Below are positions 234 to 21,990 of a DNA stretch of 21,990 nt, one piece after another; position 1 is the first letter of the stretch, and every line of letters starts with the position of its first letter. The translations under genes and the position numbers were made by a program. This DNA is from Ichthyosporea sp. XGB-2017a (Eukaryota; Opisthokonta; Ichthyosporea). The notes beneath the pieces are model-generated. The model made no database searches. It saw nothing but the letters and a program-made list of their open reading frames with translations, and was not told where the DNA came from. The stretch spans positions 107,762 through 129,751 of the forward strand of contig PDIM01000067.1 of assembly GCA_002811675.1 (NCBI GenBank), read 5' to 3'.

Positions 234-345
234 TTAGTGAAAAGCGAAAAGTAGAAAGAAAAGGAAAAACGAAACATCGGTAACCAAAAAATATAAAAAA
301 AAAAAAAGAAACAACAAGAAGAAGGATTTGGATCAAGAAGGGATT

Positions 346-3300
346 ATGGTGTTGGTCTTAAGTCTGGGTGGAAGTGACTGCTTGAGTAGAGTCGCCTCCT
401 CGTCTTTGGGTAACTCGTCAAAGCGAATGAGAACAGCTTCAGTGTCCTTCATCTCTTATTTATCGCACAATATATTAGGATCATGTACTCGAGTAAGAGA
501 GCACCATCGTTTGACGTTTATTCAAACAGTCGCAACAACAACGAGAAAAAGAACAGCGAGTGTGTATAGTCTGCATTGTTTATCCTCCTCCTCCTCCTCC
601 TCCTCCTCCCTGTGTGAATCAACATTGTCGTCATTATCATTTTCTCGCGGGATATCCAGTGGACGAAAAAGTTTTAGATCTGCTGCTGACGCTGCTGAAG
701 CTGCTGCTGCTTCCACAACCAGTGCGCGTTCGAGCACACCTCGGGAGGAGATAATGAGTCTTTTGAAAAAGGCAAGCAATGATTTTAATGTTGTTCCGCG
801 TTTGAGGAATGCTTTTAAAGCAAGTTTGGATCCAAAACATGGGAAAGGCTTGAGTGGGAAGAGAAAGGGAAGGGGAAGAGGGGGTTCTGGGCGGCCACAC
901 TCTACGGCAGTGACTGGTGGTTGGGATAGGATGGACAGGAATCTGCACAAGCAACAGGAAGGGGTGTTGCGGGAGGGGAAAAGTGGATTCAAGATGCGAT
1001 TTTGCGATATGGAAGGCGTGAATGCAATTTTGAACCAAGGGGAGAAAAAAAACCTATACACGGAGAATCCATTGGAGGGTGATGTTTTTATGCATTGGTT
1101 GACTAGCAGTGTTGACGAATGTAAACTGCAGGGCAGCAAAACCTCGTCCGTGTATAAGGACAATGGTCACATGATTGGCGAGAGTGGAGAAGACGATCGT
1201 ACGTATGGTGGACTTGACGCAGCTAATAACAGGGAAGGTGGGAAGCGCAAGAGGTTCTTTGGGAAGAAAAGTGTAAATAGAGAAGAATCCGTGGGTGTAA
1301 ATGAAATGAAAAGTGTCTCATGCATGGGTGAAGTAGGGCAGGAAAATAGCAATGAGGATGAAGAGGTGTGGGAAATTGAAGTGGGGGAAGATGAGGAATT
1401 GAGACTTGATAGGCAGGATAAGAGTCCACAGAATATGTGGAACATGCTGAAGAAGAACCGCATGGCAAAGAGGTTTACTGTGAAGGACCTGGATGAGGAA
1501 GGGGATGATGTATTTGTCGAGGTAAATGATAATGACAATATACCAGATGAGATGGAAATAGTGAGTGGATGCAGAAACGATGGGAGGAAGCCATTGGCAA
1601 ACTTACAAACGTTGAGATTGAAACAGGCAGAGACGGCCGCGCAGTCTATGCAGGCCGATGGTGATTTGCCGATGTTAAAAAACCCCGACTTTTCAGAAGC
1701 GAAGCATGACGGAGCCTTAGATGAGGTTCCATTGTTGGGAGAAAACGATTTGGATGTCAAGGCTAGGACCCTTGGGAAGTTCTTGCATAGGGACTATTTA
1801 TCTTACTTCATGTATCAATATGAATTGAATGAACTGTCCCCGGATTTAAGGACTGTTGAAACGAAGGAACAACTTTCTAGGTTTTTAATTAATTTTGGTG
1901 AAAGGGCAAGGACTTTGGCTGATATGGTTTTTGCATTGAAAGTGTTGAATGGGGATATTTCTTGGTCCGACGATTTTAATGTTGAGAAACGGTTTAATGT
2001 TCTGAAAGAGATTGAGCAGCAGATAGCGGAAACTAGTTTGTTTAAAGAAGCCGGCACTCGAGCTTCGATTTTCTCGAATTATGTTACTCTTGTCCCTCAT
2101 CACCCTGAAGCTGCTGTAAATTGCGAATACTATATTGACCAGATTGCAAACGTCTATGCGCAGCCTTATCCAACACGATTCTACAGAGCCTTTTTTATTT
2201 ACTGTCGAAAGGTGATGTATTTGAATGAAAAAGACCGCGCTTTGTGGTATGGTTGGGCATGTGACTTGTACGATGATGCACTTAAACACAGGGTCTCAAC
2301 AGATTTTTTAAACAAACAAATGATGGCCTTATCTTTGATATATGGAAATACTGATAATGCAATTAAGCTTTTAAAAGAATTTTCCGAATACAAAGGTATG
2401 AGAGACTCCTGCTTTGCCATTCTTTGCAGTAGCTCTTACATATCGTCGAGGCCAAAGAAAAACTTTGAAGCGTTCGGCAAAGTGATTGATTATTTAGACG
2501 AAACAGGATATGATTTCCCGGCCCATCTCTGTGGAAAATTTTGTTTGAAAGTAGCGAAATTGAACCTTGTATACCCATTACGTAAAATGGTTGACGTCAT
2601 TGAAAGCCGAGATGGAACCAGAGCAAATCCTTTGATAAGAGCCTCCCTCATACACGCATTATGCACGCGAAGCGATTTAGAAAATGCCTTGCGAGAATTC
2701 AATATTTTATTAGCCTATTCTTCCCAAGCTGACGATGCGATAGAAAAAACACTGTCAACGCTTTGCACGCATATTGAAAATGCTGGTCGCTATGAATTGT
2801 TTGGTGCACTCCAAGATCTTATTTGCAGAAACGACAGGGTTGTTTCTCATACGGTTCTTGTGAATTTAATGAAACACTGTGAACACATCCCAAGTGTAAG
2901 CATTGCGGGTGCGCTAAAGTACGCTGTGTTATCAGGTAGTTTACGCCCTATGAACGAAGTTGAAAGACTTGGTGATAACGAAGGAATGCGTAAGAACAAA
3001 GAAATGTTTGATGCCGCGCTAGTGGGCGTAGAAAATGCCTATGGCAGCTCTTTGTTAGCTTCTCATGTTCTTGTAACAATGCATGATGCAATTGTTGGCC
3101 ACACGGGGCAAACGACCAGGACTGGTCAGTTTTGTATGCTGCTATGTGCAGTCAGTCGAATTGGAAACATGGAAGGTTATGGTAAAGATGCGTTCAAAAG
3201 AATGAAAGAGTTTGTGAGTGAATACGGTATTCTGGATACAGCCCAGCAGGAAAAAATGGCCCATTACATTGCACGGGTTATGTGTAAATACGACAAGGAT

Positions 3301-3783
3301 GTATCCAGTAGAAAATCTGAGAAGCCTCACATGCTTAACAAAGCATATGATATCAGTTATTTTAGAACTTGCAAGTTTGAAGATGCGTTTGACGAGTATT
3401 GCTCGAATCCCTTCCTCAAGTGTGTATATGTAGCAGGGATGATAAAGCACGCTCGTTATGGGGATTGGAAAAAGAAGAAATTGCGTGAGCGAGTGAGTGC
3501 CATAATGGATGGACTTGTAAAAGAAGCATTTCATAGCCGCGCGAGCGGCTCTTCTACAGAAATGATATGCTATGTATATGACACTTTAACTCGCTCTGGC
3601 TACATCGACCGACATGTTGGTATGGAAATGAATGGGTTTATTAAAATCCATGCTTTGGATTTTGAAAGGAATGGCTCAAAGAATGAATATCATATTTTGA
3701 AAACAGTTTTTCAGTTCTGCGAGAAAAGACGATCATCACGTAACAGCCCCACACAACACCCATTTAACTTTTTAAGCAAGTAA
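346..3783 (+). CDS. Large helical-repeat (PPR/TPR-like) protein, possibly mitochondrial
   Basis: This is an uninterrupted frame of 1145 codons. The first ATG after an in-frame TGA (238-240) is at 346. The first ~110 residues are rich in Ser, Thr and Arg with few acidic residues, which suits a mitochondrial presequence, and include a nine-Ser run (residues 80-88, TCC repeat) and Ala-rich stretches from GCT repeats near 681-713. Residues about 125-470 are charged and look disordered, with an acidic patch near 335-370. From about residue 480 to the end the protein is helical; segments such as the one encoded near 2640-2710 resemble a PPR/TPR helix-turn-helix (LIHALC...LENALREFNIL). That would fit an organelle RNA-binding protein, but no repeat array is clear enough to name the family. 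It converges with the deoxyhypusine hydroxylase gene. Confidence 0.85.
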   Translation: MVLVLSLGGSDCLSRVASSSLGNSSKRMRTASVSFISYLSHNILGSCTRVREHHRLTFIQTVATTTRKRTASVYSLHCLSSSSSSSSSLCESTLSSLSFSRGISSGRKSFRSAADAAEAAAASTTSARSSTPREEIMSLLKKASNDFNVVPRLRNAFKASLDPKHGKGLSGKRKGRGRGGSGRPHSTAVTGGWDRMDRNLHKQQEGVLREGKSGFKMRFCDMEGVNAILNQGEKKNLYTENPLEGDVFMHWLTSSVDECKLQGSKTSSVYKDNGHMIGESGEDDRTYGGLDAANNREGGKRKRFFGKKSVNREESVGVNEMKSVSCMGEVGQENSNEDEEVWEIEVGEDEELRLDRQDKSPQNMWNMLKKNRMAKRFTVKDLDEEGDDVFVEVNDNDNIPDEMEIVSGCRNDGRKPLANLQTLRLKQAETAAQSMQADGDLPMLKNPDFSEAKHDGALDEVPLLGENDLDVKARTLGKFLHRDYLSYFMYQYELNELSPDLRTVETKEQLSRFLINFGERARTLADMVFALKVLNGDISWSDDFNVEKRFNVLKEIEQQIAETSLFKEAGTRASIFSNYVTLVPHHPEAAVNCEYYIDQIANVYAQPYPTRFYRAFFIYCRKVMYLNEKDRALWYGWACDLYDDALKHRVSTDFLNKQMMALSLIYGNTDNAIKLLKEFSEYKGMRDSCFAILCSSSYISSRPKKNFEAFGKVIDYLDETGYDFPAHLCGKFCLKVAKLNLVYPLRKMVDVIESRDGTRANPLIRASLIHALCTRSDLENALREFNILLAYSSQADDAIEKTLSTLCTHIENAGRYELFGALQDLICRNDRVVSHTVLVNLMKHCEHIPSVSIAGALKYAVLSGSLRPMNEVERLGDNEGMRKNKEMFDAALVGVENAYGSSLLASHVLVTMHDAIVGHTGQTTRTGQFCMLLCAVSRIGNMEGYGKDAFKRMKEFVSEYGILDTAQQEKMAHYIARVMCKYDKDVSSRKSEKPHMLNKAYDISYFRTCKFEDAFDEYCSNPFLKCVYVAGMIKHARYGDWKKKKLRERVSAIMDGLVKEAFHSRASGSSTEMICYVYDTLTRSGYIDRHVGMEMNGFIKIHALDFERNGSKNEYHILKTVFQFCEKRRSSRNSPTQHPFNFLSK
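583..609 (+). repeat. In-frame TCC triplet repeat (poly-Ser)
   Basis: Nine TCC units in a row encode a Ser run in the N-terminal region of the helical-repeat protein. They lie in the presumed presequence or disordered segment, so length changes of whole triplets would probably be tolerated. Confidence 0.9.
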
Positions 3784-4209: not shown

Positions 4210-5211
4210 TTAAGAGGCATTAACAGCGGAATCGCCCAATTTCGAAACTGTATCAGCATATTGGAAATCCCCACTTTGCTCGTATTCCAACATATCTAAG
4301 GCAACATCGCAACTTTCTTTAACAACACGCTCACCATCTTCTTGAAAGAGTTTCAACACGGGCATACACTCTTCAGTTGCGATGGATCCCAAAGCTTCCG
4401 CACATTCATGTCTCACCATACAGTTCTCATCCATTCGCTCCAAAGCTTTTACTAGACCCGGAACAGAAGCAGGGTGCTGCATCTGCCCAAGAACATAGCC
4501 AATCTCATGACGAAACAGCGCGCTCTGGCACCCAAAGCCATCCACAATCGCCAACACAGATTCTTCATCCCCACGATTACGCAAAGCAAACAGCGCGCGG
4601 TACCGTTTGAAAAGAGGCAATTCCTCATTCAAAAGCATTGTGCGCAGCTCGGTCGTTGCTTTGTCTTCAAACCCGGCAGGAGCTGGATCCACAGAGGAGT
4701 ACTGTGTCCCAATCACATTTTCCCCATCTTTGAGTGTCCCTTCTTCAATCTTCTTTTTCTTCTCCATATTAAACTTTACAAGGTCGACTGCAATCTGACA
4801 TGTCTCGGAGACCTCGATACAATCATCCTCTACATACTTTTCCAAAATCGGCAATGTCTCGGGTTCAGAAATAGCACCCAAAGCCTCGCCAGCCTCGTGA
4901 CGAACCATCGCCTCCTGGGAGCGGTCCTCCAATACCTTCACAAGAGAAGGGATGCTATAAGGGTCCTGCATCTGCCCCAGACAGTACGCCGCCTCATGCT
5001 TCAACAGCGCAGAATCATCTTCAAAAGTCTTTGCAATCCCATCAATCGCCTGCTGACCACCGATATTTTTCAGGGTAAACAAAGCGCGGAAACGCTCAGC
5101 CAAAGGCTTTTCAGAATCATTCAGAACCTTTGACAATTCCGGGACATGCTTCTTTAAATCTTCTGCCTCGCATGCCGCAGCAGTATTCGTTGGTACCATA
5201 TGCTCACCCAT
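4210..5211 (-). CDS. DOHH: Deoxyhypusine hydroxylase
   Basis: The 333-residue product is a HEAT-repeat di-iron enzyme that hydroxylates deoxyhypusine on translation factor eIF5A, the last step of hypusine formation in the cytosol. Two halves each carry two His-Glu iron-ligand pairs: H72-E73 and H105-E106 (motifs KHEAAYCLGQMQ and RHEAGEALG), then H235-E236 and H268-E269 (RHEIGYVLGQMQ and RHECAEALG). Both pairs have the 33-residue spacing of the human enzyme. The linker (about 148-182) is Lys/Glu-rich, as is usual. The start is the first ATG; a second Met at residue 5 is possible. Length is close to the family norm (about 300) and all eight ligands are present, so the enzyme should be active. 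It is head to head with the guanylate cyclase gene, with a 27-base poly(A) run about 150 bases upstream. Confidence 0.97.
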   Translation of the reverse strand: MGEHMVPTNTAAACEAEDLKKHVPELSKVLNDSEKPLAERFRALFTLKNIGGQQAIDGIAKTFEDDSALLKHEAAYCLGQMQDPYSIPSLVKVLEDRSQEAMVRHEAGEALGAISEPETLPILEKYVEDDCIEVSETCQIAVDLVKFNMEKKKKIEEGTLKDGENVIGTQYSSVDPAPAGFEDKATTELRTMLLNEELPLFKRYRALFALRNRGDEESVLAIVDGFGCQSALFRHEIGYVLGQMQHPASVPGLVKALERMDENCMVRHECAEALGSIATEECMPVLKLFQEDGERVVKESCDVALDMLEYEQSGDFQYADTVSKLGDSAVNAS

Positions 5212-6399
5212 TTCTTTCTTTCTGTCTTATATATCTAATCTGCCTGCTTGAAATACTTCCTCTTCCCTGATGTTCTTCCCATGTGATTTTCTTAAATAAA
5301 ATAATAAAGAAGGAGAAAAATAAAATAAAAATAAAATTAAAAGAAATATAAAAAAACAATGAAAAAAAAAAAAAAAAAAAAAAAAAAATAAAAAAAAAAA
5401 AAAAAAAACACAGCTGATTTATTTTTTCTATGAGAATTTCCATACTGAAAATATTTGTATGAAAAAATCTATAGTTAAAAATTTTCAATACAAAAGTTCC
5501 ATACATTTGATATTTTCAATAGAAATTCTGTGATTTTTCTCAATGCAAGATGGTACCGAGGGAAGGCTGTAAAGAGGAAGATGAACAAGTGAAGTGGACT
5601 GGAATTGAAAACTTGTGCTGTTGGAAGTGAAGATGCAGGGGAACTTAAAGATGAGGGTAAAGCCCTTTGTTGCCCTTTGGCGAACTAAAGGGTGATGGCG
5701 AAGTCAGAGAAGGAGGTATCTTCCAAGAATAGGTAAGGTGAATAGAGAAATGTGGGTCATGGGGGACTTTTTAGGCAGTCTTGCATTGAATCTTATCACC
5801 AAAAAGGAGTTATAGAAATTTCAGAGAGTTGCTTTACATGTGCGTTTCTCAAGTAAACATCATTGACCTCTGCTCGCTAAAAGTCAAGATAGAAAATTAG
5901 TACGGCATTTTAAAATAGCTGAGAAGGACGAAACAGGAGGCCAGCGCCCTCGTTCGCAGTTCGGTCTCCAACAGAAACGTCCTTAGTCTTATTTGTTCCA
6001 CTCTCTTTAATCTCTAAAAACAGAGCTACTAAGAGTGAAACTTTGTGCAAGAATGGGGCCCAATGAAGAGAGCGTAAAACACACAATGAGCTAGCACATA
6101 AACTGATAAGTGACAAAGACTACTAGAATGAACACCCGATATGCTACTTGACCCGCATTGGGGTGAAGATTTGTTGGAAGTCTTATCAGTTTAATGAGAT
6201 AGCTATACTGTAGCTTCATTATATTAGGTGTGAAGCCAGAGCAGATAGCTCTAGTACGTAGTATAAGATGGGAGAGGAGAGGGATGGAAGGATGGGAACT
6301 ATAAATAAGAGAACAGTTGCTTAACAAAAGGTTACGTAATTGAAAAAAAAAACCAAACGAAACGAAACGTGTCGGTTTTCTTTTTTTTTTTTTTTTGGG

Positions 6400-6438
<39 letters not shown>

Positions 6439-6484
6439 TTTGTTCTATTCTTTTTTTTTTTTTTTTTTTTCTTGTTGAAATTAG
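5212..6484. other. Long divergent intergenic region with A/T homopolymers
   Basis: This region separates DOHH (-) from the guanylate cyclase gene (+) and should hold both promoters. It contains A27 (5362-5388) and A19 (5390-5408) runs, then about 900 bases of ordinary AT-rich sequence without a convincing ORF on either strand, and finally the poly(T) tract. A good-looking donor (AATAG then GTAAGG, near 5732) follows a 12-codon frame from an ATG near 5697. Its phase would fit the acceptor at 6483-6484, but it encodes no signal peptide. The missing first exon of the cyclase should lie here, and I could not identify it. Confidence 0.6.
6381..6470 (+). repeat. Compound homopolymer T16-G5-T35 ... 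T20
   Basis: The T runs are at 6381-6396, 6402-6436 and 6451-6470, with GGGGG at 6397-6401. Read in frame it would give an absurd poly-Phe leader, so it is not coding. It could be the pyrimidine tract of an intron ending in TTAG at 6481-6484, or a place where the assembly is unreliable. Confidence 0.9.
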
Positions 6485-9400
6485 GAATCCTGTTCATCTG
6501 GCCGCCAATCTCACAGGACGAGATATTTCCGTAGTGGTGGAATGGGATAGGCCTCCCGTCGTGGACACTCTTGCGCATGCGAAGAAGATACGGGATGCGG
6601 CAGATCTGTACAGCGGGAGCAGTAGTAGTGGCAGCGGTGGAGTGAGCATGGGAATGGTTGTCACTCTACCAGATGAAACCGTGATTGCTGCAATGGACTA
6701 TGCGTTATCCAAAGGAATTCCTGTTGTCTCCATGAACAGTATCCCGGGCTCTTTTGACTTCAACTCAATGAACGCTCTACACATGCAGCACATATCACAG
6801 GATGAACAGTTTGCCGGTGAAGTGGCCGCTAAACGTCTTCAGAGCGAATATAAGGTAACACGATGTGTTTTTGGAGGCGGTGAGGCTAACAATGGCGGGA
6901 TACTCAGTAGAGCGGTAGGACTGAAGAACATTTTGGGGGACAATAATGTAAAGACGTTGTATATGGATGTCACTCATGTGGATTCCGCCGCGGCAGAAGT
7001 TGTTGCGCTAGTAAATGCTGATCCAACTATTGACTGCTTGATTTCCGGAGGTGGGAGTGTAGCAGAGGTGATGGACACTGGGTTGGGAATAATCTTAAGC
7101 TCCGGGCGAGTTATGAAAGCAGTCATATCGTTTGATGCGAACGATAAAGTGATAACATACTTAAAGAATGATCGCTTCTCTTTCGTAATAGATCAAGGTC
7201 AGATTGTACAAGGGGCTCACAGTGTGATGTACATGTATCTATATCTAATGACAGGCCTTCGCATCATCAACAAAAGAGTGGATTCCGGTCCCCAGTTCCT
7301 AACCAAGGCCAATATCAACAGTTTCATATGTACGGCTGCTTTGGCGTTTAATCATCACAAATCCGAATGTTCGTTCAATAACCAAAATAATGGGGCTCTG
7401 ACTGAGGGTACAGGCGGGAGTGAGAACACAACTGGTGAGTGCCCATGTGTGAACAATCAAAATTGTCCAGCCACAGAAACATGTCCGGCCATTGATCCAG
7501 GAAAAATCAATATTCACGTGACCATTGATTCCATAACAGGTGTGGAGTTTTGGAGCGGAATTCTACTTGGGGTAGAGCACGCGAAACGGGATTTAAAAGT
7601 AAATGTGACATATTCTAGTTACGATCAATACTCAACCGCTGCCCATGTAGCTGCGATTCAAAGAGCGATAGATTCAAAGGCAGACGCACTAGTTGTTTCC
7701 ATTCCAGATGATGACGTTTACACAATCGATACGGAGGAAGCTCGTCCTGTAAAATTTGCAGTAGAGAGGGCACTCGCTGCAGGTGTCAAGGCCTTGGCCA
7801 TCCAGAAAGGTGAACGGACACAGGCGGCATTAAGCAGTAAAGGTCTGTTCACTTTTGTGGGCGAAGATACGAAGACCTCTGCAGAGAGTATGGCAGCCTT
7901 GCTGGCGACCAAATCGTATTCAAAAATTTTAATAGTAACCACATCGTCGTCTGTTAAACAACGTACGCAGACATTTAGAGACAAACTGGTCTCTCTTTTA
8001 GGGTTGAATACGGCATCGAATATGCTACTGAGCCAATTTGATTCCACGACCAACCCAAATGGTATATTGGTTAAAGTCAGTCCCTTTGATGCAACTACGG
8101 CACGGGTAGCGATAAAGAGCGCAATTATTGAAAACCCAGGCGTTCAGGCAATCGTGGCAATGGACAGTGGCGCCTTTAACCCAACCATTAGCGCACTTAA
8201 ACTGGTCGACAAGGCTAACGGGTTCCCAAGGGCCATTTCGTTAAATAGCGGCAATGGTCTCCCTGTTTATGCATTCGATGTGCAATCAGATACTCTAGCT
8301 GAAATACGTTCTGGCAATGTGCTGGCCGGAAGTGATCAACAACAATACCTTCAAGGATATCTAGGGGTGTACTTTGCGTTCATGGAAGTGGTTACTGGAA
8401 CGAGAGTGGCGTCTTTGGTTCGTTCGGGCCCAGTAATGGTATCCACGGGAGCTGAAGCTTTGGCTCGGGAATGCGCAGCAAAAAACCTACGTAATATCCA
8501 CTGCCCATGTGCGGATGGTAGTGGCACGAGCAATAATGCAGACATGTGCTACCAATGCTTGCCTGGATGGTATGATTCGGATGGCGTGTCTTCCACAAAT
8601 TGTGTACAATGTTTGGTTGGTAATATTTGCCCTGGATTTGGCACAACATCTGCTACCTTGCAGCCATGCTCAACAGCCACAGTTCCTGGATTGGTTACAT
8701 GCCCTGCGAGTAGCTCGGATCTAGTTCTTATTATCATCATTGCGGTGGCATCTTCTGTTGCCTTGTTCTGTGTTTGTGTGGTATTCTTTTTCGCCTACCG
8801 TAGAATACAAACAAAAGCGGCAATCAATGCCATGCTATGGGTTATTGAAGAGAATGACTTACAGGAAGACACGTATAGCCCTGCCCATCCTGTTAATACT
8901 AATATATTAACCAAAGGCTGTGATGATTTTGATCTCAATCTCAGTTTAGAAGAATCAACGAAAAGTCATGGTGAAAGAGCCGTATTTGGAAAGATCTTTG
9001 GTCGCACTATGTTCTATCGAGGTGAACGGGTGATTATCCGAGACTTGGAAGCGAAACGTATGCAAAAAGGGACATTTACAAATGTAGAAAATTCTAAGTG
9101 TATTAATTTAAATCGTGATTTAAAACAAGAAGCCCATGCGGTGTTTTCGCTGTCGCACATAAATGTAAACGCATTTATAGGCGCAACAACTCGAACCACG
9201 AACAAATGGTTTTATTTGGTGTGGGCCTATTGCCAAAAGGGAAGCCTCAAAGACATTTTAAGAAATCAATCTATTGACATGGACTGGTACTTTCGGTTTT
9301 CAATAGCGCAAGATATAGCCCAAGGCCTGGAGTACTTGCACAAGGCAATCGGGGTTAGGTACCACGGATCATTGACACATGACAAGGTGGTAATGGACAA

Positions 9401-10739
9401 TCGATGGGTGGTCAAAATTACAGACTACGGAATGCGATCGTACAGAGACCAGATGGTTGATAATTCCTCAAAGCTCATCCAAAAGCCCCGAGATGATAAT
9501 GATACAAAACATTTCTGGAACAAATTGCTTTTCGTTGCACCAGAATTGATCAGTAAAGAGCTGATAATGGAATCAAACGCTCCTCAAGATATATCGACTA
9601 AAATCAGTCGTGACGTTAGTGTGCATAAACGTCAGCTGGGTGACATTTACTCTTTGGGTATTATTATGTCTGAACTGGTTTTGTTAGGAGACCCGTTTTG
9701 TTATATTTCTCATATGAGTCCCCAGGAAATTATTCAACAGTTGGCTGTGGGTAATACAGATATAAGTCTGTTCGGAGAAAACCTAAGCGAGTCTCATCAG
9801 GGGGAACATTTTGAAATTGTTGGAAAGACATTCTGTAACATAGCAAAACAATGTGCTTCAAAAATTGCCCACAAGAGGTTTGATTCCGCGGGATCGGCTT
9901 GCGCGAGTATTTGTCGAGCAAGTCCAAATAGGCGTTTGAGTATGATCGACCGAATGGCGGCGATGCTTGAAAAATATTCAAATCATTTGGAGGAGATAGT
10001 CGAAGAGCGCACCCTGCTTTTAGAGGAGGAAAAGGCAAAGACAGATGACCTTCTCTCGCGAATGCTTCCAAAAGCCATAAGTGACAAGCTTAAGGCAGGT
10101 CATCCAGTGCCTCCAGAGTCATTTGATGCAGTTACTATTTTCTTTAGCGACATTGTTGGCTTTACAACCATCGCAAGCAAAAGCACCCCTTTAGAAGTGG
10201 TAAGTTTACTAAACGATTTATACACGTGCTTTGATTCCATAATCGATGTATTTGATGTGTACAAGGTAGAAACTATTGGTGACGCCTACATGGTAGCATC
10301 GGGTCTGCCGACTAGGAATGGACAGCTACATGCGTCTGCTATCGCCAACATGGCACTGGAACTGCTTGCAAGTGTTGTGGATTTTCGCATTAAACATTTG
10401 CCGGATACTCAATTGCAATTACGTATCGGACTACATTCTGGGCCTGTTGTGGCTGGGGTGGTTGGTTTGAAAATGCCTCGTTACTGTTTGTTCGGGGATA
10501 CGGTAAACACCGCGTCGCGCATGGAAAGTGGAGGGTTGGCTCTCAGAATTCATATGTCATCAGATACTCAAGCAATCCTTACGCTCCTTGGGGGTTACCA
10601 TTTGGAATCAAGAGGCTCTATTTTGGTTAAAGGCAAAGGACAAATGGAAACATTCTGGCTCACGGGTAGGGATGGTTTCACCAAGCGTTTGCCTGATGTA
10701 GCTAGGGCTGCACCCGCCGACGAACATGAATTCAAGTAA
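6485..10739 (+). CDS. Receptor guanylate cyclase with tandem periplasmic-binding-protein ectodomains (5' end missing)
   Basis: About 1417 residues are visible, forming a membrane receptor that would make cGMP. Order by base position: LacI/RbsB-type sugar-binding-like domain 1 (6486-7370), Cys-rich linker (7436-7500), a second such domain (7506-8470), Cys-rich stalk (8500-8700), one TM helix (8718-8799), kinase-homology domain (8980-9960), coiled coil (9970-10090), class III cyclase domain (10115-10670). In the cyclase, metal Asp codons are at 10149 (FSDIVGFT) and 10281 (ETIGDAYM). The purine-specifying residues are Glu (10269) and Cys (10485, PRYCLFGDTVNTASRMES), the guanylate-type pair. The kinase domain has HGSLTHDK in place of HRDLKxxN and DYG for DFG, so it is a pseudokinase like those of animal receptor cyclases. 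Domain 1 lacks its first strand and no signal peptide is seen; the first in-frame ATG (6648) is inside the domain. A 3' splice site at 6483-6484 is the likeliest true start of this exon. Confidence 0.93.
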
Positions 10740-16800: not shown

Positions 16801-19800
16801 CTACCTCTTTTTGTCTGGTGCAAAGGAGTCTTCGGATGTTGCAAACGATTGTTTGGAGGATGCGAGGTCATCTTTGTCATAGTCGTCACCTTCAACAGGT
16901 GTTCCTTTGGCTCGCATTTCCTCTCGATATCTTTCCTCCCACCATTGCTTTCCCCCATTGCGAACCCAAAAGTAAAGCATCACAAACCCCAAGATGATGG
17001 CACATCCCCCTCCAATAGGTCCAAGATACAAACTGATATAGGACAAGTCGACACCGCCGTACAGCTGTGTCTTAAACTTGTCTGCCAGATCATCTGTAAT
17101 AAATGCAAATTGATCGCACCAGTACCAAGGCAAAACTATATCAACAGCCTTGATGCCATTGTATGGTGGCAATGTGGCGAACTTCGGCAATACCATCAAA
17201 TTGGCTTGTAGTCTTTTATGAGCATACATGGCCTTTCCGGTCCATGGTTCAACTCCAATGTATGTTTCCAAGTCGTCCGTACCGGGGGCATCCCCTTCTA
17301 TGGTAACATTGTCTTTCACAGCCTGTGGACAGTTGTAAAACCATGGCTGTGAAAGAAATGACGGGCACTTGGTGGCGGCTTCTAGAGGCTGAAAACACTC
17401 AAAGCGATCAGTGATACCATACGCTGTATTGTTATAATAGCCAGGATAAAGAAGTTTTGGAGAGGGCTTGTACATGTTAAGCGTGATACCCTTGTAGTCC
17501 TGATTATGAGAATAAACAAGATGAACAGCACGAAAGGCCTGAACAACCCAAGCGGCAACCGTCTCTTCTGCGGGCGAAAAGTCGCCATGTGAAACTTTAC
17601 CTTTGGGAAGAAACTGGGTTCCATCATGGCCTGCTACTTCCAGTTGGTCTGCGTCAGCTTGAGGAAAAGTACTTGCAATTTGATATTGATTGGGCCAAGA
17701 CACCCACTCAAGAACTTCTCCAACATTATTCTCTCCTGTTTTAAGGGTAACCCATTTGTTTAATGGATCATTCACAGAAGCTTCCTCCGTTTCCCAATTT
17801 GGGAGGTTGGCAGGAGTTGAGGTCATGGCACCTTTTGTCGATGTTGACAGAAAGTCACTTTTCATCCCTTTGCACCATTCATTCGGGGACATCTGGTTAA
17901 CTATTCCCATATTGTTCAGCTCTAGAGTAGTTGGGGTAAATGGCTGAAGATTAACTATGGCATATCCCATAATCACGTTCATATTCCACAAAGCAACAGC
18001 CATCTCTTTGCTTACTCGCGGATTCAAGTAAGTAAAGCCTTTAGGCTCAAATGTGGTCATGGCTGTCCAGCACCCTTTTTCATCTAGACCCTGAGGGTCA
18101 GCACTCACCATTTCCTTGCATAGAGATGTTAATACGGCCTTACAATCCTTGTCACTTTCAGCGTTCCAAGCAGTTTGGAATTCTCCCACCAGTTTATACA
18201 TCCCTGTTTTGTTGCAGGGAAATGTGTCAGTTGCTAAATGGCCTTGAAAAGTGCACGAGTCGGATATAGACATATAAATTAGCCTCGTCATATTTATATA
18301 ATACACTTGATCCTTGCCCAGAGCTATATCATTGCGATAAATTCCTTGAATAGTATTCGTCCCCTTTCGAGCATACTCTACAATCTCTAAATCACGAAAT
18401 CCAACTGGAATAGCACTCACAAGACTTGGCAGAAGCTCAGCAACAAGGTCATTGCTCAGGAGCCCCCCTCCCAGAAGCGCATCTTGCCCCATTTGATAGT
18501 ATACAATATTGTCATATTCCACATCAGTTGGTATTTGAAACAGGCCAAGGGAGTTCACAAAACTATTCTTCAAATTTTCTATGAAATACCTCAATCCCAC
18601 TGTTTTGGTAAAAGTAACTGTAGCGTTATACACTTGATCAAATTGGTTGTCACTCATTTGAAACTTATTAATTAACTCGGTTTTAACCGATTGGTTCGTT
18701 GAGGGATCAGGATTATATCCTAACCACTTCTTTATCCCCTTGACAGCATAAGGGGAGTCCTCGGGAAATTGGGCTTTATCAAAGAGCGCAGTTATCAGAG
18801 CAAGATTTTCATCGGCGTCTTTCTCCGAAGAGCCCAAGTTCCATGCAGCAAGACCAAAGGCCTTCATCATGGCGCTAGTTAAGGTAAAACCCTTGTTCAA
18901 TTCACCCTTCAACCACTTATCGCAAAGAAAGGTTTTTTCAGTTCCGGAACCAAAACTATTAAAAATGGGGTTTGGTACTCCATCAGACAAGCAATTTAAA
19001 ATAACATTTGTTTCGACCGCCCATTGCTTAGAGCTCAACTCTATTATTGTCGCCATGCAGTGCGAAATATGAGCTGCGTCGAAAAACTTACTCATATTCT
19101 CTCCGCACCCAGCATATAATTTTGAATGTTTTTCTGTATCAATTTCTAAAATCATATATTGCGCTTTAGCATCAGTGAAAAGATTTCCAAGAAAGACCAA
19201 CATATTCTGGTACATTTGATCTATACTACCCAGCGAGAGTGGAGCACTTGGTATCTGAGGTAAAAGCCCATTAGTGATCATTCCAGTCAATGTAGACACA
19301 ACACCAGGAGTTGCTGACCTGTAGAATGCAGCGTCCCCCCCGAATGTATTCAGTAACACAAGGACGATTGGATTAATCATAACTATGATATCATTATCGG
19401 GGTCAACACCGGGAGCAGAAAGGGACGGCTGGAATACTTGCCACATCCACTGTTTGTGGTGTATTAGACCCTTCCAGAACGTGACAGCGACGTTATTCTG
19501 ATACTCTCTCCAAGTATATGGGCCTCTTGATACAAATATCGGGTTTTTTCCTTTATAGAAATCGTCTTTGTTCTTTAGATGAAAAAAGTTGACCCTGTTG
19601 TACTTTGGAACAGAATCACTCAAATTGGAAGATTGCTACAAAAGCGCCAAAAGCAAACGAAAACTGTCCATTAGCAAAAAGCAACGACAAAAACAAAAAA
19701 AAAAAAAAACTTTTAAAGAAGATATTTCGGGAATAAGCTCCCTTTTGACGAAGACTGAGGGGAGCGTGCCATAACTTACCCATTGCTTAAAGGCGTCCGA

Positions 19801-19977
19801 GCCAAAGTCATTCGATGGAATAACAATGCCATTGAGAACAACATTGTTGGCGAACTCGGGAACGGCGTATCCCATGATCAAGCCAATAGTTATACAGAAT
19901 GCCCCACCGCAGATAAAGATTATTCCGTTGATCTTCAAGTTCAAGGCCTTGTACTTCCAAAATGTCCAGTTGACCAT
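16801..19977 (-). CDS. CD36 / scavenger receptor class B family protein, enlarged (two exons)
   Basis: Exon 1 is 19977-19780 (66 codons) and exon 2 is 19635-16801, giving 1010 residues and a TAG stop. The layout is that of CD36/LIMP-2 proteins: a short cytosolic N-terminus, TM helix at 17-39, a large lumenal or extracellular domain, a second TM helix near 933-958, and a 52-residue acidic and basic tail. CD36-like marks are a VPKYNRVNFFHLKN strand after the first TM, SRGPYTWREYQNN, HDGTQFLPKG late in the ectodomain, and near the end YIGVEPWTGKAM followed by AHKRLQANLMVLP and LPWYWCDQF. The family binds lipoproteins, fatty acids or sterols and moves lipid across membranes. The ectodomain is about 890 residues, roughly twice the usual 400-440, with extra sequence in the middle. 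Earlier frames (TTG at 20040) lack an ATG, so the first ATG, at 19977, is taken as the start. Confidence 0.9.
19636..19779 (-). other. Spliceosomal intron in the CD36-family gene
   Basis: A 144-nt GT-AG intron with an ideal donor TGG|GTAAGT (19779-19774), a 15-base T run on the coding strand (plus A run 19695-19709), a GCTAAT branch-site candidate (19675-19670) and acceptor TTTTGTAG (19636). It is phase 0 and joins Trp66 to the QSSN residues of exon 2. The acceptor TAG is an in-frame stop for exon 2, so the two ORFs only meet by splicing. Confidence 0.9.
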
Positions 19978-21115
19978 TTTTCCTAGCTGTGCACAATAAA
20001 AAGTCTGAAAGTTGGTGATTATTTGAGAGCAAAATGACAAGTGTGAACTACCCGCTCACCACCCTAAAAGGTACCTGTAGTAATATTCAGCAAGTAATTA
20101 GTACACAAGTTGAACAATGCCATCCATGCACGCACGATAAGCAAAATACGCCGCGATGAGTCTACCTGAAACTTGATCTCTAGGAATTTCAACTCTTATG
20201 CCTTCCTCTGGGGATATGAACAGTTTATGTAGCAGCTTCACAAAGTTGTTATATTTTCGATCTTAATGTTTATCTATCTCTTGGGAAGTCCCATCAAGGA
20301 GAACAGCACACAACAAGCATATGAGTGCGAGATTAAAATCCAGACTTTGTCCAAACCAGAGAATTTCAGCTGCAGAGAGTTATACACTTCACCATGCCCC
20401 CTCCTATAATAACAGCCACACAGTACACTCACCCTACAAGACTGTGTGCAGGTGCAGCCTGAAAAGTGAAAAAGATTCATAAACTCATAAATTCATAAAT
20501 TCCTAAAATTTTATTATAGCCGGGGCCTGCCTGTGCATGGATCCGCGCCGTGGAATAGGGGTAGGGTGGCATCTATAGACTATAGCTATCCATGGTAACG
20601 CCACAGGCCCACAGCCCACTGTAGAGAGTCCCGAGGGCGGACTGCGGAGTCTCTGCCCCGTTGATCACGACTTATTATTACTGTAGTATTACCTCTCTGT
20701 GACTCGGTAGTCGGTGCGGTAGCTGGAGCCTGGAGAGTGGAGACGCCCCTCTATGTATAGTGTATAGGGTTTGTCCCCCCTCGTCCTATGTCCATAATGG
20801 CCCTCTCTCCCAGGAGTGCCTAGAAGAGTTGTCACTTTGGCTTATCCAGGAATAAAGAAGATAGTTCGTGACTTGTTTAAATCTTTAGTAGCCTCTCCAT
20901 TTTTTAAACATCTCGTCTCTTCTTCTTTATTCCAATTTGGTCTTGATCACAAAAGGTACAGAAGAACAAGACTAAGTTTTTTCTCATTTTTTTTTTACTT
21001 TTTTCCTAAACAAGAATTTAAATCTTAAAGAACTCAAGAGACACATAAGACTTGTTTGGAAACGAGAGGTTTACTGATTGATTACACGAACTCTGACTGC
21101 AGAGTCATAAAACAC
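19978..21115. other. Upstream region of the CD36-family gene, with a GC-rich block
   Basis: No confident gene is seen. The minus strand holds a possible 5' UTR intron: donor TAGG|GTGAGT near 20430 and acceptor GTGCACAG near 19991, just before the CD36-family ATG; this is inference. Bases 20480-20505 are a short CATAAA/TTCATAAA repeat. Bases 20519-20820 are GC-rich and unlike their surroundings. A plus frame at 20816-21028 starts with GTG and resembles nothing known. Confidence 0.55.
20519..20820. repeat. GC-rich block, possible dispersed repeat
   Basis: The block has sharp AT/GC edges. On its minus strand (near 20600-20620) it carries a close copy of the word found at 15368-15387. No ORF or terminal inverted repeat was recognised. 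Confidence 0.35.
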
Positions 21116-21205: not shown

Positions 21206-21990
21206 TTAAACCGCTCTGTGATGTTGTCGTCTTTGTGTATCTTTGCCTCTTTCGCTTTCCCAAATAATCTGTGCACGTAGTGCTCTCATGTTAATATTCC
21301 TGTCCGCTTCCTCTTCGGCGTGAAAGAAAGCATTCCTAGCTTTCCAGCCTACCGCAAATGCGATTGTTGTATTCTTGGTGTTGCTGATGAGATGTTTAAA
21401 CAGTGTTGGCTTGCGACTACGGTTTGCGGTTTCTGCTAATTCTAGGTATCCCTTACACAAATTTATATGCTCGACCGTCTCTATTTCGTTTTCTCTACAT
21501 AGGGGGCAAAATATCCCTCTGCCGTGGTCATCAAAGTTATCTTCCCAAGTTTCCTGCTTTACAGCTCTAGTCCATAACTTCTTTCGTACCCAACACCATA
21601 TATACTCTGCATACAGTCCCTTGATACTAGACTTCTTCAGTTTCATGATATTTTCAAAAAAGGATTTAAGTGTTTCGTCATTGGTCCCCCACCTGTGAAG
21701 CATATCCTCCCATTTTTCGCGTTCATTTTCGGACAAGACGGGGTCACTCGTAACTAGATCTTCCTCTCTCAATATTCTGTCCTCTCTCGCGCCAACTATG
21801 CAGGCCCTGAAACGGCCTATGGTTGGGAAATTCACAACGTCTAAAGGGTCCAGCGCTGCAGGATTGTTGTAACGTTCTGTTACAAAGGCAGTCTCGTACA
21901 TGTTGTCGAATTCAGATCCTCTAAGCTGAGGGTCACGCAGGTCTGCATTCTCTCCATACACGACTCTTCTTCCATTAATGATTTTCTCGT
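21206..21990 (-). CDS. C-terminal part of a probable non-LTR retrotransposon polyprotein (partial)
   Basis: The frame is open from the right edge of the window, with no ATG required, to TAA at 21206, about 260 residues. The main clue is a zinc-finger-like C-x2-C-x9-H-x3-C (codons 21508 down to 21455, CPLCRENEIETVEHINLC). It resembles the zf-RVT segment that follows reverse transcriptase and RNase H in LINE-type elements. It is preceded by a Trp-rich stretch (YIWCWVRKKLWTRAV) and followed by a basic C-terminus. No reverse transcriptase motif lies within the window, so the assignment rests on this motif and the A-tail at 21116-21129. A host gene with a similar finger is possible. The frame has no internal stop, so the copy may be young. 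Confidence 0.5.
   Translation of the reverse strand, partial: EKIINGRRVVYGENADLRDPQLRGSEFDNMYETAFVTERYNNPAALDPLDVVNFPTIGRFRACIVGAREDRILREEDLVTSDPVLSENEREKWEDMLHRWGTNDETLKSFFENIMKLKKSSIKGLYAEYIWCWVRKKLWTRAVKQETWEDNFDDHGRGIFCPLCRENEIETVEHINLCKGYLELAETANRSRKPTLFKHLISNTKNTTIAFAVGWKARNAFFHAEEEADRNINMRALRAQIIWESERGKDTQRRQHHRAV

Follow-up and report, generated by a model that had tools for sequence, protein, structure and literature searches.

What would a receptor sense if its outer part resembled two bacterial sugar-binding proteins and its inner part a guanylate cyclase? The question is raised by a gene on the forward strand of a 21,990-nucleotide stretch of DNA, here called the window, from Ichthyosporea sp. 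XGB-2017a (assembly GCA_002811675.1, contig PDIM01000067.1, positions 107,762 to 129,751). Its public gene model is EukProt Nk52_evm32s2325 (P0002). The search covered residues 37-720, and over these P0002 is 100% identical to the window protein (P0001). Names that begin with Nk52_evm belong to Chromosphaera perkinsii (PMC6981761), described as a member of the ichthyosporean order Dermocystida that comes from Hawaiian sediment and has a genome assembly of 34.6 Mb (PMC5560861). Compared with this published size, the genome that we searched (25.06 Mb in 291 contigs, designated below by C numbers) is possibly incomplete.

Our best reading is that the gene encodes a receptor that responds to a nutrient or polyol by raising cyclic GMP (cGMP) and that was built by ectodomain swapping. 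More specifically, we propose with moderate confidence that it encodes a single-pass receptor guanylate cyclase, in which two tandem CUT2-type clamshells for sugars or polyols sense a ligand and cGMP is the output.

Two solute-binding domains on a receptor guanylate cyclase

The main coding exon (6485..10739, stop codon 10737-10739) lies within an open frame of 1456 codons at 6369-10739 on the forward strand. An earlier note, made from the letters alone, had claimed that positions 6486-8470 encode two tandem LacI/RbsB-type domains on a receptor guanylate cyclase, and the motifs that it quoted are present in this frame. When each half was searched alone against Pfam, Peripla_BP_4 matched domain 1 (6486..7358, without its first strand) with 46.0 bits (E 6.2e-12) and domain 2 (7494..8489) with 66.7 bits (E 3.1e-18), both above the family cut-off of 35.1 bits. 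Protein Data Bank (PDB) entry 4ru1 is the first match of each half by sequence. The top NCBIfam model for both halves is a rhizopine binding protein, at 109.7 bits and thus far below the equivalog cut-off of 420.

Two separate domain models were compared with known structures by running VIA-align on the top 1000 chains from Foldseek. Both predicted folds are the type I periplasmic-binding fold, and CUT2-type sugar-binding proteins stand at the top of the 50 entries listed for each. The claim of two Peripla_BP_4-type modules on a receptor cyclase is thereby borne out by profile and by predicted structure, whereas the class of ligand that the note had in mind is still a presumption. We rejected one single large domain, because each half has a profile match and a fold model of its own. 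We also rejected bacterial contamination: a single open frame encodes the two domains along with the kinase-homology and cyclase domains, and another gene of the genome carries the tandem as well.

ANF domains and Peripla_BP domains have the flytrap fold in common (PMC6027212), and ANF_receptor lies upstream of the cyclase at 17 of the 73 cyclase loci of this genome. Thus, the ectodomain might be imagined to be a diverged animal-type ANF receptor domain that merely resembles a sugar-binding protein. However, this explanation is hardly credible and already contradicted: ANF_receptor (PF01094) gives no match to the window protein up to E 1, none of the 52 ANF hits in the genome falls there, and it is CUT2-type proteins that lead both lists of fold matches.

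The two domains are joined by a cysteine-rich linker (7359..7493), several of whose listed cysteines are shared with a paralogue described below. A second cysteine-rich stretch (8490..8711), in which no Pfam family exceeds its own cut-off, leads to a single transmembrane helix at 8724..8807 (residues 786-813). The helix appears as overlapping hydropathy peaks at 786-804 and 795-813, and from residue 39 on it is the only hydrophobic region of the protein.

The inner half begins with a kinase homology domain (9105..9881; PK_Tyr_Ser-Thr 66.6 bits, Pkinase 57.3 bits) that has HGSLT in place of HRD, as expected of a pseudokinase. It is followed by a linker helix (9951..10091) at the edge of an HNOBA match of 21.2 bits, under the cut-off of 23.4, and by the catalytic domain (10110..10664; Guanylate_cyc 231 bits). 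Aligned motif rows show that the catalytic domain retains D1261, E1301, D1305, C1373, N1380 and R1384, which we take to comprise the GTP-selecting pair E and C together with metal and transition-state residues. In adenylate-type cyclases, K and D occupy the positions of this E and C; with E1301 and C1373, the substrate residues are of the guanylate type, and GTP is the predicted substrate. Some of the six residues are altered in other cyclases of the genome, for example on C105 and C41. The genome also holds eleven PDEase_I matches.

We envisage that domain 1, as the outer clamshell, would most likely close around a small inositol-type sugar or polyol. Domain 2, the inner one, has altered cleft residues and might either bind a second small ligand or relay the movement. 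Closure would rearrange the receptor, a dimer in this model, and the change would pass through the pseudokinase and linker helix to the paired cyclase domains, which would then produce cGMP.

Clefts and relatives of the paired domains

The clefts were compared at 132 columns in which 85% or more of 48 bacterial rows agree; these rows were chosen from the 120 listed of 978 hits. Both window domains carry the bacterial residue in 51 of the 132 columns, with gaps in eight columns of domain 1, where the first strand is missing, and in four of domain 2; the domains of the paralogue agree in 55 and 60. By analogy with ribose-binding proteins, the cleft positions compared presumably face the ligand. 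Domain 1 retains the N-S of PVVSMNS, E134, N137, R143 (here and below in the numbering of the domain pieces, not of the whole protein), the F-D pair and D-Q, and in the first loop of paralogue domain 1, H, G, A, D, F and W are retained as well. Domain 2 retains IPD, R157, the F-D pair and DQQQYLQGYL. In its first loop D, S and V replace H, G and D, and Q-K stands in place of N-S, where the paralogue has H-Y and a further homologue, P0004, has N-S. Judged by these retained and replaced residues, the cleft of domain 1 looks more canonical and that of domain 2 diverged, and neither looks simply decayed.

Two narrower explanations are sub-cases of the two options that our proposal leaves to domain 2. 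It is possible, although doubtful, that sensing is confined to domain 1, with domain 2 acting as a structural spacer or in dimerisation. Window domain 2 does have Q and K at two places that are N and S in each of the 48 bacterial rows, but it keeps the bacterial C-terminal signature FD...DQQQYLQGYL and outscores the (truncated) domain 1 on the family profile. It appears unlikely that each clamshell independently senses a ligand of its own and that the receptor thereby combines two nutrient signals. The two domains differ strongly (17% or 21% identity, depending on the comparison) yet conserve equally many bacterial columns, and the INS/IQK and first-loop positions of their clefts carry different residues, all of which would suit two ligands; however, the domain 2 cleft varies among three homologues (QK, HY, NS), a pattern that seems unlike one fixed ligand.

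At least four Peripla_BP_4 matches occur in the genome: two in the window gene and two in one other gene, at 35.8-40.2 kb of C45. This paralogue (P0003; 2315-6709 of our locus L009, reverse strand) has an ectodomain that is again a tandem pair with cysteine-rich linkers, 46% identical to the window protein over the alignment. Behind this ectodomain lies a polytopic membrane part with about eight hydrophobic segments; the protein has no cyclase or kinase match, and searches with its polytopic part gave only DUF3397 below the cut-off in Pfam and a best E of 0.61 in PDB. P0004 (641 amino acids, from a 41,404-base ENA contig) and the C45 protein share 56% identity along 601 residues. The alignment of this third, partial homologue ends at residue 619 of 641, inside domain 2. 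A protein search with both tandem genes among 7,994 candidates preselected by shared words, which could miss eukaryotic relatives that share few words, returned only P0002, P0003 and P0004 at E 0.001.

In a tree of the domains, domain 1 of the three genes forms one group and domain 2 another (support 100/99 and 100/100). Because domains of the same position group together, the two domains appear to have been paired before the three tandem genes diverged. The six eukaryotic domains fall on one side of a branch (support 82/81) from 20 bacterial rows thinned from the same 120, and long branches meet there. Among those 120, each window domain is closer to some bacterial protein (up to 30% identity) than to its partner (17%). 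Both an internal duplication and two separate bacterial sources would be compatible with the origin of domains 1 and 2.

The 5' end and the neighbouring genes

The paralogue and P0004 have hydrophobic N-termini, followed in paralogue domain 1 by CPC and a complete first strand. In the window gene, homology to domain 1 starts abruptly at 6485, just downstream of an AG and three T tracts (16, 35 and 20 T long). The public model, placed by eye, opens with an exon at 5695..5732 (forward strand) that encodes MAKSEKEVSSKN, 12 residues that are not a signal peptide, and it implies an intron at 5733..6484, also with borders by eye, whose 3' end consists of these T tracts and the AG. The donor site at 5732/5733 is the sole match of four donor patterns within 5212-6484. 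This exon is probably a wrong first exon.

No convincing first-strand exon was recognized at 5200-6484 or elsewhere in the genome searched. When the genome was searched with paralogue domain 1, its match to domain 1 of the window gene began only at query residue 29, and no other gene matched. These results, together with the 12-residue opening exon of the public model, would be expected if the assembled gene were a 5'-truncated or decayed copy without a signal peptide and hence no working surface receptor. We consider this distinctly unlikely, since about 1,418 codons are open from 6485 onward and the cyclase residues are retained. Moreover, a lost exon ending in TG would place the acceptor within the codon of a conserved Trp, and the long homopolymers that adjoin the gap make an assembly fault plausible. 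We presume that the receptor is exported to the cell surface; its signal-peptide exon was not found.

The upstream neighbour of the receptor gene (4210-5211, reverse strand) encodes a HEAT-repeat protein that seems to resemble deoxyhypusine hydroxylase. Farther upstream, an open frame of 1151 codons (328-3783, forward strand) has no Pfam match at E 0.01 and is preceded by long purine-rich low-complexity DNA. On the reverse strand downstream lies a gene for a CD36-family protein (16801-20040; 143.7 bits in frame 16801-19623), and the open frame at 19636-20040 resembles, by eye, the first exon of this gene. A further reverse-strand frame (21206-21988), without a Pfam match at E 0.01, has a C-x2-C...H-x3-C pattern; judged by eye, it is reminiscent of the terminal part of a retrotransposon open reading frame.

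The receptor cyclase repertoire and its meaning

Across the genome, 89 Guanylate_cyc matches were merged into the 73 loci mentioned above (same strand, at most 3 kb apart). The 17 loci with ANF_receptor at most 5.5 kb upstream comprise 14 in which it shares the open frame of the cyclase and three in which it occupies a neighbouring frame. At another 14 of the 73, the upstream domain is of a transporter-type binding family, in the same open frame at 11 and in a neighbouring frame at three (C174, C182 and C185). The remaining 42 loci include cyclases of other kinds, and ectodomains were not assigned to them.

The CUT2-type tandem pair occurs on a cyclase at one locus, the window gene. Bmp/PnrA domains are found at five loci (C265, C107, C255, C174 and C182), OpuAC at four (C178, C7, C223 and C22, the last with 19.1 bits against a cut-off of 21.2), NMT1 at one (C45, 56 kb) and NMT1_2 at two (C73 and C185). 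A TauA-like domain on C161 matches PDB 6ssy (E 9.6e-15) and reaches 18.6 bits with Pfam NMT1, under the cut-off of 20.5. Six open frames, four transporter-type and two ANF, were scanned with Pfam; C265 combines Bmp, Kelch, kinase homology and cyclase, and on C161 the TauA-like part is followed by CUB, EGF, kinase homology and cyclase. SBP_bac_3 has no match in the genome.

The same binding families give four hits without a nearby cyclase: OpuAC on C162, NMT1 on C166 and C41, and Bmp at position 24,971 of C174. The latter domain and another Bmp domain at 30,138 of C174 have identical scores about 5 kb apart, which suggests a recent tandem duplication. At 31.4 kb of C64, a guanylate cyclase domain lies inside a remarkably long open frame of 10,684 codons.

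A tree of 23 cyclases took in eight of the 14 transporter-type loci and left out the ANF loci C157 and C217, which are too divergent or partial. By path length, the closest neighbours of the window gene in this tree are C161, C265, C182 and C178. Three kinds of ectodomain occur among these four, which fits the swapping of ectodomains on a common chassis. A group of all transporter-type receptors (eight rows against 15) has support 48/94, a weak indication that they may form one clade. We give an even chance to the broader proposal that C. perkinsii, which is free-living and closely related to animals, has a bacterial-style nutrient-sensing array. At least four transporter groups (CUT2 pair, Bmp/PnrA, OpuAC and NMT1/TauA-like) would be interchangeable on one receptor-guanylate-cyclase chassis, with the CUT2 pair also on a polytopic chassis, so that one type of sugar sensor would feed two outputs.

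The window receptor shares with animal natriuretic-peptide-type receptors an ectodomain, one transmembrane helix, a pseudokinase, a linker helix and a class III cyclase with E and C; however, it has two CUT2-type domains instead of one ANF_receptor domain. Most trypanosomatid adenylate cyclases are described as one-pass receptors with two flytrap domains (PMC6027212), and they have the tandem, the single helix and the class III cyclase in common with it. In contrast, the window protein has guanylate-type residues, a kinase-homology domain and domains of the Peripla_BP_4/CUT2 type. The trypanosome enzymes are not known to have a kinase-homology domain.

Unlike bacterial CUT2 solute-binding proteins, of which 4ru1 (ACEI_1806) ranks first and the 120 listed of 978 are at most about 30% identical to the window domains, the pair is tandem, carries cysteine-rich linkers and is anchored through the membrane to a cyclase. 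Two fold matches, the BT1754 fructose domain (2x7x) and XylFII-LytS (5xsj), are bacterial sensors that, by their entry titles, likewise use a transporter-type binding protein. Their output is a two-component system, whereas that of the window receptor would be cGMP in a eukaryote.

A 2025 survey of G-protein-coupled receptors in close relatives of animals, C. perkinsii included, treats ANF and other extracellular domains, and the words "periplasmic" and "Venus flytrap" are absent from its main text (PMC12716839). Among the papers listed in our literature search, which covered few subscription papers, none describes this receptor, transporter-type ectodomains on holozoan receptor cyclases, or domains of the CUT2, Bmp, OpuAC or TauA type on any receptor guanylate cyclase. 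Given the two flytrap domains of trypanosome receptor cyclases, the tandem is a new variation on a known theme; the surrounding repertoire is more surprising.

Receptor guanylate cyclases are regarded as animal peptide-hormone and sensory receptors. If our proposal is true, a unicellular relative of animals uses the same chassis with bacterial binding proteins, and a nutrient-sensing origin becomes testable. The domain families point to candidate ligands (inositols and sugars, nucleosides, betaines and taurine-like compounds), and the CUT2 pair on two outputs would constitute a natural ectodomain-swap experiment.
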